Source: Filobasidium wieringae (taxonomy: Eukaryota > Basidiomycota > Tremellomycetes > Filobasidiales > Filobasidiaceae). From it: DNA of 64,000 nt. This document shows, in pieces, positions 2,962 to 47,554 of the stretch; position 1 is the first letter of the stretch, and the number at the start of each line of letters is the position of its first letter. The position numbers were made by a program, and so were the translations under genes. The notes under the pieces are model-generated. The model did no database searches and was not told the origin of the DNA. It saw nothing but the letters and a program-made list of their open reading frames with translations. Where the stretch lies: assembly GCA_001600055.1 (NCBI GenBank), contig BCIV01000004.1, positions 546,430 through 610,429 of the forward strand. Direction: 5' to 3'.

Positions 2962-3495
2962 TCAGGGACAATGGCTCAACAGGCAGGCAGAGATCGGAAG
3001 AGGGCGGTCACGTACAGGTCCACGGGTGGGTGTTTCATCTAGATCGTAATCGCCAGGCAGTGATAAAGGTCTCGTCCGGGTGGGCAGCGTCATCTGGCTG
3101 AGAAGTATCTGATGAAAGTTTTCGAAGAGCCTATGTCCTTGTGTTATCTGCTTTAAGTTAAGGGATTTGACGTTCTGGTATCAACCTGGTCGATGATTAG
3201 AGTTTTCGGTATGTGGTCGGTACACCAGCAGACTTAAGTCAGGACGGTTGATGTTATCATTGTGTTGATAAACAAGACCCGATGCAAAAACACGTGTAAC
3301 ATGCCTGCGTTCAGATTTTCTCGCCTACCGTAGCAATATCAAGTCTGCGCGAAATTGACTTCTCCACTAAATGCACAGTTTTCTCATCACTGTCGAGTAC
3401 GTTATGATATACATGATAGCGCGAGGACTTCAGTCCTGCAGTCTGGGACGTAACGGGTCGTGTGCTCGTCAAACATCGTTAATGACTATGAATTC
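2962..3495. other. Intergenic, 3' of FunK1 gene
   Basis: About 530 bp between the unknown gene and the FunK1 stop codon. I see no coding frame with splice support, tRNA or repeat. It probably contains the FunK1 3' UTR and the promoter of the unknown gene. Confidence 0.4.
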
Positions 3496-14335: not shown

Positions 14336-17300
14336 CTAGGCCAAAGTGTTCTCCACATCGGCGGAATCTTCTCCGCTCTCCATCGTCGCAAAGTTCAAGA
14401 AAGGTGCAGGTCGATGTTCTTCCGCCCAGAACCCGATAGGCGCATCCAACGTCAAGGAGTATGGCATGGAAGGCGCAAATTGCTGGGTAAGACCGACAGA
14501 GTAGTTCCATGCTTTTCCCTCAGGGACCAAAGTCGCTCCCAGGATACGATCGGACAAGAGCAACTGCACTCGGTGAGCCATCGACGTGTTGAAGCCCTGA
14601 ACCACCGGGCTGTCAGCATCTATTTCGCTTCGATCAGGGATGCGGACAACAACTCACAACAGGGTTGGCCATCACGTCCTGCACCTTTCTACCCCACTCG
14701 AATCCAGCCACGCTCAATTCGAATGCACTCAAACTGATACTACCGGGCGTGAACGCAGTGGTAATACAGATCGAGTTCGGTCCCCATGACGGGTTACCGG
14801 CCATGATCTTGGCTTGCGAAGCGACATCTTGAGGAGCGAGATGATTCAACTCTTGAGCCTAAATTTCAGGTTGAAAAACTGGTAAGTACGAATCGTTCGA
14901 AACAGCAATCAGCTGATCGGGGAAACTGACCTGCGTCTTGATCCAACCCAGAGGCTCCAAATCCTTCAACAAGTAATCAGATTCCGGAAGCTTGGTAGGC
15001 AACTCGACAGAGTTGTTGCTACCCCTCTGGGGAACCCAGACGACCGCCTTGATCTCCTTGACAAGCTTGTTATCCGCGGGAGAACTTCCGTAAAGATAAG
15101 CAGCCACTTGAGTTCGCAGATCGGCATTCACGATAAAGGATTTCAGGACATTCTTGGGCATGACGAAAGTCAAACTTCCAGCGTCGTCCTTGACATCGTC
15201 ATTAGAAACGTAGATGTGGTTGACTCGCAGGGGCAAATTGGTTGCGGAGATCGCTCGAACTCGCCAGTCCGACTTCGAACTGAAAGTCTGTTGCTCGTAG
15301 TTGGTCGTGGTAACCGTTTGAATCTCGTCTCCATGACTATGTAGATGATGAAGTTAGGGATTGTTCAAAGCGAACACGACAAAGCTCAACTTACATGTTC
15401 GTGGTCTTGGTCTGAATAGCAGTCACCTGAGCCTGGGCCTCGGTGGCCTTCTCTAACTCGGCCATCTGCTGACGCTGAATCGAAGGTGCAGCGATCTCCA
15501 TACCCAAAATGATGTCCCTGATCTCACTGGCCGTCAACGAAGCGACGTTCACACTGTTTCTCTTTCCGAAATCACTCAAGATGAGGTCCTTGAGTGCGAC
15601 TTCGACCTTCATCCACTCGTCGTCAGACAACGTAGGCCAGATGTGATGAGGCTCAGTGATGGTGTTCTTGTCCGGTCGCAAGATGATCTTGGCCTTCTCG
15701 TTGTTGACGTGCAACGAACGCAGAATCAAGATCAATCGCGAGAAAGCGGTATACGACGAGATCGACTTGAGCCAATCGTCGTACAAGTTGAACAACACCA
15801 TCTGAGGCTGGGTCGCTCGTAAGATCAAGTCACCGAACTTTTCAATCTTCATCGCAGCCTGGAAGGGAAGCTGAAGCTCGGATCCCTTGATGACAATGTT
15901 AGGGAAATCGAGCAAATGGACCTCGAGAGGGTCCAACATTCCTTTTCGGGTGACAATGACCTGCTTGGGCTGTTCTTCAACGGGCAAGGATCGAACCAAG
16001 GCAGCAACTTCTTCTGCGGTCTTCCATTTGGCCAATTGACCGAGACGCTTCTGACCCGCCCAGACACTGGTGTGAATGATTTTCAAGAACAATTGACCAG
16101 ATCGAGGGTTGAAGATGAAGATGGCTCCGTTGATAGGCTTGGTAGTCAAGTTACCCTCGAAAGTTCGGTGGATGGTGACTCGGTACACGTTGGTGTCGTC
16201 GACGAACCAGATGACCTGGTTGGAGAACAACTCGGAGTAGTTCTGCGAAGAAAGGTATGGCTCGGTGGCTTCGGACGAGTACAATTGCAGACCCTTCCTG
16301 ATACGCTCTCGGAGGACGAACAAGGCAGGGTTTGCCTTCATGATCTTACCCATAGCCTGGGTCATCAAAGGCTTCAGACCAGGGAAGAAGTTACCGAACG
16401 CAGCGTGCAAGTTGTAAGACAGATCGAGGGCGATCAACAAACCGGTAGGCGAAGGGTAGATCGACATCGAATCGCTGGTGTAATCCAAGAACTTGGCACG
16501 AGCGTAACGTTCGATATCGTGTGAGTCGTAATCACCCCATCGCAATTGAACATCGAGCCAAAACTTGTTCGAAGTCATGGTTCCGTCGTATTGGTCACGA
16601 CCGTCCGAAAGCAATGAGGGTCGTGAGATGTTCCACTTGTAACTACTGAAGAGCAAGACATCCGAAGCGGAAGAGTTGAGCTTGTAACTCTTACGAGGAT
16701 GGATCAGCTCCTTCTGTACGGTTTCGATCTGGAGCGCTTCCAGTTCCTGATCGAGAACTTGACACAAGTCCATGACGACCGACTCGTGAATCTTCTGCCA
16801 CAAATGGGCTCGGAACAATTGGATGTAACTGATCTTCAAGGTGGGTAGCTTTCCGTGCATGAAGATACCAGTAAGATCCAATTGAACCTGGAAACCGACG
16901 TAAACGTTGGCTCGGTTCAAGGTAGGAGACCACCACAAGGTGAATCGACGATTGGGAATCTGACTCAGACCGGATCTCTGAGCGTTGGTAAGCTTCTTGA
17001 ACTTCATACTCTCTTCGAATCCTCCAGATTTCTCCCAGAACAGACCCTCCCAGGTAGTGAATGCGGTACCCTTGAACAGCGAGTGCTCCAGGATACCCTC
17101 AACTCCTCCCAAGGACGCGATAACGTCGACTCGATAAGAATTCAAGTTCCAAAGCTTTCCGTCGTGCCTTTGACTGGTCCACGCGAACGGGTTATGCTTG
17201 GGAAGCTGGTACTGAACCCAATCGGATCGTAATCTCCAGCTCTTGTCGAACGCAAGAGTTTGCCTATCTTTCTGGAACAAAGTCTGGATACGAGGCAGAC

Positions 17301-20300
17301 CTCGATCCCAGCTGTCTTCGAGATCCTCCAAGGTCAATCGCCTGTTCTGGGCCTGAGCCTCTTGCCTCTTCTGCGCATACTCCTGCCAGACACGTTGACT
17401 GTCCTGGAATTCACTCTCCCAAGGTACGATATATCGGTACAAGTTGGGAATCAAGTTTCCAGCCTCGTGTGTCATTCCCGCTCGGAAGTGGGTTGTGCCA
17501 CCTTCCGCCGTCTGCTTGCTCCATCGAAGATCAGACTGGGGGATCAAGATATAACCCATCGACAGCTGACCAAGACCTCCTAATTCCTTGGGTGCAAAGA
17601 ACAGCACAGGTGGGAAACGACTGGGCATCTTCGAGTTCAAACCGATCTTGACCCTGGTCTGGATTTTGTTCTCGGCCTTGACCAACATGTCCAACAACTC
17701 GGGAGTACCAATGACTGCCTCTCTGTAGTAAGTCATCAATCCAATCAAGGTGGTGTTCCACTTGTTGATGACCTTGGAGAAAGTTGAACTACCAGAACTC
17801 ATCAAGACTTGTCGAATACGGTTCTGGAAACTCTGCAATCCATACTCGGAGACCCTAAGGAATGCCTTTGCAGTACGTTCCTTGGTAGCCTCGTTAGTCA
17901 GACTCCAGGTGGCGTCCTTGAGCACAAAGTTGTCTCCCTCACGAATCTTAGGCAAGATCCTGACCTCGAAGTTGCACATGCTGAAAAGCAGTTGCGGGTT
18001 GTCACGAGAGTATACGGAAACGAAGCTCTCATCCCATTCAATCGTGGTAAGCGATCGGGGCAAGGAGTTCTTGACGTTCCAGAAGACGGCTCGTCCCAAG
18101 TTGACATCGTGCTTGATCAACCTCATTCGGCAATCTCTTGGCCAGCATCGCTTGTTGTTGTATCCGATAACGTTCTGGTTATTGGGATCAGGTTGAACAG
18201 TCAAGTATCGCTGGATGAGATCTCGCGCTTCATCGGCAGTGAAGCGGAAGAGAACGTGGATACGATCGACGTATCTCGAGTACAATCTGATCGGGTGACT
18301 CGTCTCGGTCTCGGTATCACGGTATTGCAAGAAGTTGTTGGGAAGCTGAGGTGGTCCGGCCATCTCACTTGCGCGTTTCAAACCCAGGATGAGGAGATCG
18401 AGAACGAGACCGTAGTATTGGAACACAAAGGACGAGAATTGCAATCCTCGGATCAACCCGTAAGCGTTGACGTGAGACATGTCCTTGTAGGTAAGAGTGG
18501 CGTTGTTCTTGGCAGTAATGTAATCCGCCAAGTTGTGGTCCATGATGAGACGAAGAAGTCGGTTGAGCAGAGTCAGATCGATCTTCTCGTAGACCTTGGA
18601 CAGCACAGTCTCCATCATGACGACACATTCACCCTCACTGGTGTCCCAAACGTCGGTCAAGTTGTTGATTCCCTGACACCACTTGTAAACAAGAAGGGGT
18701 GGGGGTTCCGAGTCACCTGGCTTGATCCAAGCTGGGAACAGGTGTCGTTTGTCAGCCTCGTACGCCAAGAACTGGTCGAGGTATGCGTCGGTAATCTTTT
18801 CCACAGGCTCGATATCGTAACAAGGAATGAGCTTGTCATAGGTGTCGAAGAACTCGATACCAGACTCCTTGAAAGCTCGCTGCGTCAAGAGCAATCGCTT
18901 GATTCGGGACAAAGCCTCGTGAGGAGAATCGTAAGCGTTTTCAATCAAAGCCAACTCTTCTCGTTGAGACTGATTGAGTCGTCCTTTCACACTGTAAGCG
19001 GTCTTCAACTTCTCCAAAGCCAGTACCAAGAGCTTAGTATCGTGTTTGTAGGAAAGGGGAGGGAAAGGAATGGGGCTGAATTTTCTAGATTCAAGCCAGT
19101 GCACGGTCGACGAATAGATGGCGACGGCTTCTTCAGACGAGATGTAGGGACCGTCCTTCAAGTAACCGTTCTGCCTCTCCTGTTCGGCCTTCAAGTATAG
19201 CCTAGTCAGCCTTCCCAAGTTCTTCCTGACAACCGCTTTGTCGACGGTAGCTCCACGCCTGATACGTTCACGGTTATAGTGAGCAACAGAAGTCCACCAA
19301 TCGGCCTTGCTCTTGACGTATCGAAGCAGGATGTTCTCGACAGCGGCAGGCATTCCAGGGACCTTCCAAGGAATGTTGGCCTTCCAACAACGCCAAGCTT
19401 CAGACAAGTGCTGCATGATCGTCTTGGCCTTGTTCTGCCTGATGGATTCTGGCATCATGTCCAAGATATCGGTCATGACGGCGGCACGCAACTCGAGATC
19501 AAAGTGAGACTCTACACGTTGCTTGGTAACGGTCTTTGCGATTCCCTTAGAGTTTCTTCCCTCGAATTGCCTGGCGAGCAAGTTGTTCAACCACCTCTCC
19601 AAGAGAGGAACGATACCTCTCATGAAGAACAGCCAGACCCTCCAGCCGGGAGCCCAGAATCCAACACCTGGACCTTTTCCAACGGGACCAGTGTTGAACC
19701 TGGCATAGATCAGGTGTTTCAAATCCTTGCACATCCTGACCTGCTTCATCAACTTGTACTTGTAACGGTACATTCCGGTCAACTGACCGACATGCGAGAA
19801 CATGTACTGAAGACCATCTGCAAGTTGGAAAGCGTCGACGTTTCCAAGTCGGAACTGAACGTGTGCGTCCACAATGAGTTTCGTCAGACGCAAAATCTCT
19901 CGGATCAGATGGAAAGCGTTTCCGAATCTGGACTTTTTCCTCTCCTTGGTGGTAAGCGTCTTGATGGGTTTCAAGTTCATGTTGTAATCGAGATGCAGGT
20001 AGTTCAAGTTCTTTCGATGGATCAACAGATTCAACATGTTGAATCCCTGTCGACAGACTTGAAGACCAGCTTCGACCCAATCCAACTGAGTGCTTTGGAA
20101 GAACTTTGTGTTCTTCAAACTCCTGAACAAGTTCCTCTTGCCCATAGCCTTGGGCGCCTTCTGCTTGAGCGTATTGAGGACATAAACCTTGAGCAACTTC
20201 TGGTACGAAACCCTGACCTTGACCGGCTGGTTAGGTGGGCAATGCTCCATGTAGAAGTTCTTGATCAGGGGGATATCCTGTGCACGCCTGGTCCTTCCGG

Positions 20301-21742
20301 ATCGCTTGTCGTAAGGGTAAGGAGCCCAGAACAGAGCCAAAGCATCGGCAGTCTTCTCGGTCTCGATATCCTTTTCAGCCAAGAATGGCTCAAGCTCCTC
20401 GGGAAGCTCAAACTCGTCATCGTCATCGCCTTCTGTTCCGTAACCGAATACTGCGTCTTCATGAGAGATGAGCTCGGTGTGAGAAGATTGAACCTGTCTC
20501 TGAGAGATAGGGTTGATGAGAGGGTCAAAGTAGAACGCAGGGACTGTTCGAATCGGACAGCGGGGTGAATACCGATCACAGGATCACGCATGAAGTCAAA
20601 CACGACTTACGATCAGGATCATCCGTCTTGATATAAACATTCTTGACCTCGTGGTAAGTTCCCAAATGAACGCTCCTCGGCAGAGAATTGTATAGATGAG
20701 GGAAAGCGATCTTGTATTCTGATCGGATCATTCCACGGATGATGACTTTGTTGATATCGTTGAACTCGTTCCAATCCTCGTCAAAGGCGTCCATATCGCG
20801 GTAGAGGGGTTCAAATTTGGGTCCACCAGGTAGGGCGATGTTCAAAGCCTGTCAACGGATAGACAGATGTAAGCTTGAATCGAAGGGTTAAGGACCGCTT
20901 GAGCGGCTCACCTTGGCAGTGAAGAACGCTTTTCGATCAAACAGGTAGAAAGCATTGTTATCGGAATAATCACTCAACAACTGTCTCCCGATCCTATAGA
21001 GGTTGGCCATCTGATCGAGATCCAGCCGATACGTCTTGTAAGTGCCCCCGTTGATGTGTTTCGTATCCAACAAAGGTTTCGCATCGTAGAACCATTCTTC
21101 AATCGCACCGTCCTCTTCAGGGTCCAACTCGAGCTGGATAGATTCAAGAGGGTCTACATCGAGGATGTTATCGGCGTAATCGGTAACGGGTTCTTCATCG
21201 TCGAAAGGGGGAAACCTCATCCGTTTGAAATGACGTCGATCACGTTTCTCTCTCCTCATCGCTAACCACATGGAGGCCCATTGAGCGTGATAGATGGGTT
21301 CCACCACTCGAGGGACTTGGTTCACAAACGTGATGGCTCCCGAGATATGGTAAAGAACGGGGACCTCTCGTACTTGTTCCCAAGGACAAGGAATGTTTTC
21401 CAACAGCTTCATCACCGCATGAGGAACGTATTTGAGAGCACCCAAGTGAACTCGTTTATCCGTTCGGAACTTTCGGGAAGACATGTCTCCATGATCCTTC
21501 ATGATCTTACGGATATGCTCGGGTGGTAGATCAGCTTTCCCACCATCCACACCGCCTCCTCCACCTTGACGACGTTTCTCGTCGAATCGCCTCGTCTGGG
21601 ATTGACGCCATTTCCTTGCCTTTTTCTCGATGTCTTGGGGAGAGAGGGAGGTTACATCGGGGGGAGAAGGTGGAGCTTGGGGGTAAGAACTCGTTCCGGG
21701 TTGGTTGAAGCCGGGAGGTCCGAAACCGGGTGGGAACGACAT
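14336..21742 (-). CDS. PRP8: Pre-mRNA splicing factor Prp8
   Basis: Core U5 snRNP protein that scaffolds the spliceosome active site. Six exons can be joined in phase: 21742-20912, 20848-20611, 20543-15395, 15336-14931, 14858-14658 and 14596-14336, for about 2,361 residues, the normal eukaryotic length. The N-terminus has the usual Pro/Gly-rich lead ([11 protein letters not shown]), followed by the highly conserved PRP8 N-terminal, reverse-transcriptase-like, linker, endonuclease-like and RNase H-like regions in the 5.1 kb exon (for example [17 protein letters not shown] and [16 protein letters not shown]). The last exons carry the JAB1/MPN domain ending in a short acidic tail. The 5.1 kb exon is by far the longest in the window. 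No intein is present, although PRP8 inteins are known in several fungi including Cryptococcus. Confidence 0.98.
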
Positions 21743-46118: not shown

Positions 46119-47554
46119 ATGTCTCAACTAATATCTAAGCCTGAGTCTCACGATGAAAGCTGGCTGAGCCGACGAGGAGAACGTCAGGAACCCCGGACTT
46201 GGATAAGCCTGTGGTTTGGGCTGAGCACTTTATTGGTTCTATGGGGTGAGCGGTCGGCACAAGTAGTTCGAGCCTGAATTTACAATACTGACTGTTTGGA
46301 ATTTCCATCAGATGCTGGTTATTGCTTGCTTAGACCGCGCTCGATGCTTGGCGGTGACCTGCACTGGCTATGGAAGCCATACCAGTCAGTTGTTATCGCT
46401 TGTTTATTGCTTGCTTCTCAAGCTGAATTGGAGGAGACAAACACTTCTTCAGATTATACGGAGAGATCGACCACGTTTACGGTCTCCCGGCTATACATAA
46501 CAATACCGGTTTCACTGCAGCTCAGGCTACTCTCAACCTGATCGAATCCATCTTCAATATCGAGTACCTGTACCTGGCTCATTCTGGGAGAAAATCGACT
46601 AAAGGGAAGAACAGAATGGACGCACTGGCGCCTCTCATCGGTTTTACAGGAGCAGTCATGACATTGAGCAAGACTGTTTTATATTGGTTGCAAGGTGCGT
46701 TGTGTTACCAGGCGACATCCTTATAGTCGATGCTGAATTGTCATCTACTCTGACATCCAGAATACTACTCGGGGTATGGTAATATCGGCCACAATCACTT
46801 ACACGATATCATAGTTCTATGGATCATTCCCAACGTGAGTCTCTGAACGGTTCATGAGAACCAGACATGGTAAGAACAGGCGCTGATTCTTGTAACTCTT
46901 ATTTAGGGGTAAGCTCAATCCTACCGAACCTCGTCGCACGACAGTCACTAATACTACACGCTCAGTCTATGGTTGATCTTCCCCTTCTTGATTATGGTGA
47001 CCTTGGGGTCGCAGATAAGCTACGCCTTGCGTAGCCATTCTGCTGAACTAAGCGAAGAACAAGACCGATTATCAGCTTTGATGACGGAAGAAGTCGTCGC
47101 TATGCCGCACGCTCAAGTCTTGAGAGAAGCGAATGTCAGGGAAAGTGTACAAGAATTCACCCCGGTGAAGCAACAATCCGCTCGGCGCTCCATTGGTGGA
47201 TCCACAAGCAAACAGCAACGCGCACCCGCGGTCCGTCAACGGGAAGTCACTCCTGAAATCGAGGTGCCCAGCCTGTTTATCGAGCCTCCCACCGTTCGAC
47301 GCCCTCCTCCAGACCTGAGTACTCTCAAAACGCCCGTCAGAAGGACGAGAGCGTCCTTGGCCCCTAGAACTGAATCCCAGACTGAGACGAAAGTGGTGAC
47401 GCGCTCAAGATTGAGAAAGAGTTCAGTCACTGTGAAAGAGGAACCTGCGGATGAGACGGAAGACGATGTGGCAGATGTCATCCAGGTAGCTACTCCTGCA
47501 CGACGAACGAGGGTAATTCGGAAGACTAGAAGTAGAGGCAACCTTCTTGGTTAA
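46119..47554 (+). CDS. Multi-pass membrane protein, EXPERA-like
   Basis: Six exons join in phase to exactly 369 codons: 46119-46245, 46312-46384, 46453-46694, 46761-46834, a 2-nt exon 46907-46908, and 46966-47554. The first 250 residues have four to five hydrophobic segments and conserved-looking blocks WDAGYCLLRPRSM, GGDLHWLWKPYQLYGEIDHV, GFTAAQATLNLIES, TGAVMTLSKTVLYWLQ, SGYGNIGHNHLHDIIVLWII and PNGLWLIFPFLIM. This resembles a widespread fungal membrane family related to EXPERA/emopamil-binding proteins; the catalytic activity, if any, is unknown. The C-terminal 130 residues are a disordered basic tail rich in Arg, Thr and Pro (RSRLRKSS, ARRTRVIRKTRSRG), unusual for an EXPERA protein. Family call is tentative; gene structure is well supported. 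Confidence 0.65.
46907..46908 (+). other. Predicted 2-nt micro-exon
   Basis: The dinucleotide GG sits between an acceptor (TTATTTAG) and a donor (GTAAGC). Direct joining of the flanking exons gives an immediate stop (AAC-TCT-ATG... read as N S M fails; the phase-0 join reads TC TAT GGT TGA), while adding GG restores the reading N-G-L-W-L-I-F. The downstream intron has a CACTAAT branch site. No alternative canonical splice sites in this interval give the needed phase. Confidence 0.65.

Follow-up and report, generated by a model that had tools for sequence, protein, structure and literature searches.

Exons of a single nucleotide with RNA support have been published for Arabidopsis APC11 (PMC4674806), plant VPS55 (PMC8831610) and Fusarium CYP621A (PMC12940212), and the statement in the preliminary description of our locus that exons this short are very rare therefore needs tempering. 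As these reports describe them, the plant exons are needed for the right protein and had been missed by annotation, and for APC11 intron definition with recursive removal was proposed (PMC4674806); they differ from the exon presented here in being plant exons of 1 nt that were tested with reporters or RT-PCR (PMC4674806, PMC8831610). Earlier work on exons of 2-5 bp in Arabidopsis, Drosophila and humans is cited in PMC12940212, so 2-nt exons as such may already be in print, and in the literature that we searched no 2-nt exon of a basidiomycete was found. Two introns at one site that are removed consecutively are described as stwintrons in filamentous ascomycetes (PMC5639578, PMC6616335). In a stwintron the splice signal of one intron is disrupted by the other (PMC5639578), whereas the introns of our locus are complete and lie side by side with two exonic bases between them. 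In a relative of Ophiostoma, two introns are reported that have only a single base between them, but they are group II introns of a mitochondrial rRNA gene and not spliceosomal (PMC12308204). Trichoderma virens also has a functional microexon, in Xlr2, but this one is described as 20 nt long, alternatively spliced and glucose-regulated (PMC11121469).

The gene that we describe here, from Filobasidium wieringae, encodes an EBP/EXPERA-like membrane protein, and its fifth exon consists, with a probability that we put at about 0.9, of the two nucleotides GG between two ordinary and complete U2-type introns that are removed sequentially by intron definition. It lies on the forward strand of the window, by which we mean the whole stretch of 64,000 nt that was analysed, in a genome assembly of 19.76 Mb in 33 contigs. 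Exon 1 (46119..46245, 127 nt) carries the start codon and is followed by intron 1 (46246..46311, 66 nt, GTGAGC..TCAG), exon 2 (46312..46384, 73 nt), intron 2 (46385..46452, 68 nt, GTCAGT..TCAG), exon 3 (46453..46694, 242 nt), intron 3 (46695..46760, 66 nt, GTGCGT..CCAG) and exon 4 (46761..46834, 74 nt), which ends in phase 0 with CCC AAC for Pro171 and Asn172. Exons 4 and 6 are separated by 131 nt (46835-46965), a gap that resolves into two GT-AG introns, of 72 and 57 nt against 66-68 nt for introns 1-3, and the GG between them. These are intron 4 (46835..46906, 72 nt, GTGAGT..CTGAT..TTTAG) and the phase 2 intron 5 (46909..46965, 57 nt, GTAAGC..ACTAAT..CTCAG), both placed by the gene model and a pattern scan, and exon 5 (46907..46908), bases 1-2 of the Gly173 codon, which is placed by the homologues and the enumeration of splicing routes as well. 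Exon 6 (46966..47554, 589 nt) begins T CTA TGG, that is base 3 of Gly173, Leu174 and Trp175, and ends with the stop codon TAA. Exons 1-4 and 6 are all open and join in frame, and the six exons add up to 1107 nt, stop included, for a protein of 368 aa. The preliminary description had already given the coding sequence as exactly 369 codons and had read TTTAG, GG and GTAAGC as restoring N-G-L-W-L-I-F, and both points are borne out by the sequence. A search of the genome with the gene found no second copy: the five long exons were matched at E values of at most 3.7e-10, and the next two matches, at 0.27 and 0.33, are at chance level.

The window also holds a Prp8 gene (15391-20583, minus strand). 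Residues 30-900 of its reading frame share 90% identity with Naganishia friedmannii and 87% with several Tremellales among the best 120 of 3357 matches; a partial entry named Haematococcus, which had the top score among these, was set aside at only 67% identity. Taken with the homologue from Filobasidium, these identities indicate a placement in Filobasidiales. Aligned to the Naganishia protein the Prp8 of the window has no intein-sized insert, in contrast to the listed Prp8 of Cryptococcus neoformans, which has an intein-type domain (PF05203).

The Fusarium CYP621A exon, as presented in PMC12940212, is strikingly like the GG exon. It too belongs to a fungal nuclear gene, it is a G beside GT within the Gly codon of a conserved motif, the intron stretch around it is 139 nt, more than twice the median length, and automatic gene models are mostly wrong there. 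It differs in being 1 nt and not 2, in lying in an ascomycete P450 gene, and in having RNA reads behind it, whereas our basidiomycete EXPERA-like gene is known from its sequence.

The GG exon is needed both for the reading frame and for the conserved protein, as the gene model, the homologues and the enumeration agree. Joining exon 4 directly to exon 6 had been thought to run into TGA at once, but it results in a frameshift (N-S-M-V-D-L-...), in which the stop follows the 22nd residue beyond Asn172, and in a product of 194 aa. If intron 4 alone is kept the sequence reads N-V-S-L-TGA, and if intron 5 alone is kept it reads N-G-TAA, so that each of the three simple slips (GG skipped, intron 4 kept or intron 5 kept) meets a stop by the 23rd codon.

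Whether the orthologues conserve a Gly at this position had been proposed as a check, and nearly all of the listed homologues do. The homologue set contains 208 distinct proteins, all counted, from the best 120 of 322 and the best 120 of 662 matches in two protein searches, and position 173 is Gly in 203 of these. Of the remaining five, two carry Val, while Asp, Ala and Ser occur once each, and one of the five is a broken gene model from Filobasidium floriforme. In P0055, P0098, P0122 and P0131 the motif Gly is replaced by Ala, Val, Val or Ser, either by true substitution or through a faulty gene model. Of the 208 listed homologues, 206 have Asn172 and 207 have Trp175, with no gap between the Gly position and Trp, and in an alignment of 57 of them (A1) the Pro, Asn and Trp of the motif are invariant and the Gly nearly so. 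An acceptor before AGTCTATGG, which had been put forward as a possible refutation of the exon, yields Ser, the residue of a single homologue. Many of the best 120 of 322 and 120 of 662 matches are unnamed, and those that have a name include none from Cryptococcus, Kwoniella or Tremella. The C-terminal part of the protein (47045-47554, from about residue 200 on) is uncovered by the listed homologues, whose matches span at most 54% of the 368 aa.

Other ways of removing the gap were enumerated, and among one- and two-step removals with GT-AG, GC-AG or AT-AC ends only the GG exon leads to N-G-L-W. Single introns with any ends were considered for first bases at 46826-46849 and last bases at 46940-46974, and were kept if they gave P-N-X-L-W. 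This left five solutions, all of 129 nt and all with non-canonical ends, of which one (TG..CA) gives Gly, two give Ser and two give Val. The best of these, AACG|TGAGTC...CGCTCA|GTCTATGG, lies one base inside each canonical end and makes the same GGT codon. Such an intron would keep the protein in frame, and in the TG..CA form its mRNA is identical to that of the GG exon, so that mature cDNA alone cannot tell the two apart. We nevertheless regard a single 129-nt intron as very unlikely: TG..CA is not known to be a spliceosomal class, the Ser and Val forms give residues that occur in 1 and 2 of the 208 homologues, and there would be no explanation for the intron patterns that the gap contains in two complete sets. 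No canonical single intron giving P-N-X-L-W was found, either in this enumeration or in a scan of donor and acceptor pairs (donors 46762-46989, acceptors up to 47149); in that scan 71 GT/GC-AG or AT-AC pairs keep the gene open, and were rejected as every one of them alters the conserved stretch at the junction.

The two-step enumeration covered 46826-46975, with GT-AG, GC-AG or AT-AC ends, at least 30 nt for each intron, and again P-N-X-L-W as the result. It has only two outcomes, the GG exon with Gly and an alternative exon GC at 46880-46881, likewise of 2 nt, with Ala, each of them in either order of removal. As the sole other two-step solution the GC exon deserves mention, but it would need a first intron of 45 nt and a second of 84 nt with the GC donor GCTGAT, which is unlike the other donors of the gene, and its Ala is seen in 1 of 208 homologues; we consider it hardly credible. 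An equally slight chance is left for a stwintron, with an internal intron nested in a splice site of an external one and no exon between. Stwintrons are known in fungi and likewise need consecutive splicing steps (PMC5639578), but no nested solution with an in-frame P-N-X-L-W was found within 46826-46975, where all four listed solutions are side by side.

The homologue from Filobasidium floriforme (P0003, FFLO_06081) breaks at the same place. It follows the family to W-I-I-P-N and after the same Asn diverges into D-L-A-P-P-A-S-A-G-H-V-Q-T-Q-L, and when it is back-translated and the frame is moved by one base, its possible codons are compatible with I-W-L-L-L-P-A-L-V-M-Y-R-L-S-S-Q-I, exactly in register with the family. 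The predicted protein is compatible with a model that has joined a phase-0 to a phase-2 exon with two bases missing. Scored against a profile made without the window protein, the shifted reading reaches 21.5, a value that 3 of 1500 peptide shuffles and 1 of 469 Prp8 20-mers match at that register. If the choice among 10 registers and between 2 shifts is left free, the score is reached by 19 of 300 shuffles, which is much weaker evidence. An earlier run, with 200 shuffles and 10 registers, gave a top shuffle score of 32.7 where the observed value was 22.7. Taken together this is moderate evidence that the GG exon may be shared with Filobasidium floriforme, drawn from a back-translated protein and not from DNA. 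Searches for the DNA of relatives found none in prokaryote contigs with P0003 as query or in viral contigs with P0001, single-protein queries of this kind reaching close relatives only.

The arrangement of splice signals in the gap was compared with 20,000 dinucleotide shuffles in which the first 6 and last 3 bases were fixed. AG-NN-GT with both introns of at least 45 nt appears in 10.8% of the shuffled gaps and AG-GG-GT in 0.6%, and a GG whose two introns both match the donor, branch and acceptor patterns appears in 1 of the 20,000. In the pattern scan introns 4 and 5 are each complete with donor, branch and acceptor signals, but the patterns (GTNNGY, CTRA and YAG) were chosen after seeing the introns of the gene itself, which makes the chance figures somewhat favourable. 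The introns of Prp8 were tried as a training set for splice signals and were too few. On both strands of the 64-kb window the GG locus is the only place where two patterned introns of 45-90 nt are spaced 2 nt apart, and 200 kb of contig 1, also on both strands, holds one further such pair, which fails the open-frame check. A candidate exon of 4 nt at about 13281-13284 of contig 1 (L010 about 3281-3284), with an intron-like stretch on either side, passes this check.

The splicing of the GG exon is predicted from sequence, and an error in the window is conceivable. The gene could be a decaying or mis-assembled copy with a 2-nt deletion at the junction of exons 4 and 6, the GG between the splice sites being coincidental. 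Such a deletion must have hit the exon edge exactly, in a gene whose remaining exons are open and join in frame, the double-intron signature must have arisen with the rarity seen in the shuffles, and the related model from Filobasidium floriforme fails at the same residue. We think this very unlikely, and judge the GG to be a real and constitutive 2-nt exon whose introns are removed sequentially, in two steps, by intron definition, where we infer the splicing, its order and the constitutive inclusion.

The earlier assignment of the protein as EXPERA-like agrees with its fold, with a weak profile match to human EBP and with the names of several homologues, although the Pfam cut-off is missed. 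PF05241 scores 13 bits against a cut-off of 25.7, and three other families score slightly higher, also below their cut-offs; PF05241 is found at E values of at most 1 in 32 of 57 homologues (best 0.00021), with no match for P0002. In a computed fold comparison the protein resembles EBP and falls within the EBP fold. The profile alignment to 6oht_A (E 0.007) is ungapped and places the invariant N-x-x-W on the N-x-x-W of EBP at chain positions 201 and 204. These positions are presumably Asn193 and Trp196 of EBP, if its natural length is taken as 230. Roles for Asn193 and Trp196 of human EBP are described in PMC6549186. The fold and profile comparisons point to a membrane protein with an EBP/EXPERA-like fold.

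In the mechanism that we propose, introns 4 and 5 would each be recognised separately, across the intron. Only 2 nt separate the acceptor of intron 4 from the donor of intron 5, which would leave hardly any room for two spliceosomes simultaneously, so that the introns would be removed one after the other. If intron 4 goes first, AACGG|GTAAGC would be formed with the donor intact, and if intron 5 goes first, TTTAG|GGTCTATGG with the acceptor intact; either order would work and restore N-G-L-W in the product. Intron definition fits introns of 57-72 nt. Cryptococcus neoformans, which we take to belong to the same class as this fungus, offers a comparison. It is described as rich in introns of such length (PMC11913375). 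Exon definition would be inapplicable to 2 nt, and its failure was argued likewise for a 1-nt exon by Guo and Liu (PMC4674806). It is a tentative idea, to which we give somewhat less than even odds, that the GG exon dates back to the common ancestor with Filobasidium floriforme and has been retained ever since, that its position within N-G-L-W, a motif of the ligand pocket, prevents the simple mis-spliced forms from yielding a functional protein, and that the order of removal could be a built-in check or switch on the output of the gene.

With the 1-nt exons already published, the GG exon belongs to a known kind and is not the first ultra-short exon. At 2 nt, the exon comes close to the smallest size that splicing can handle. 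Being hardly recognisable as an exon, it would offer, in a fungus with compact introns, a clean natural example of intron definition together with forced sequential splicing. Automatic annotation tends to miss ultra-short exons, as reported in PMC8831610 and PMC12940212, and the broken model from Filobasidium floriforme may be another one missed. Together, the missed annotation and the possible second example suggest that ultra-short exons may be commoner than thought.
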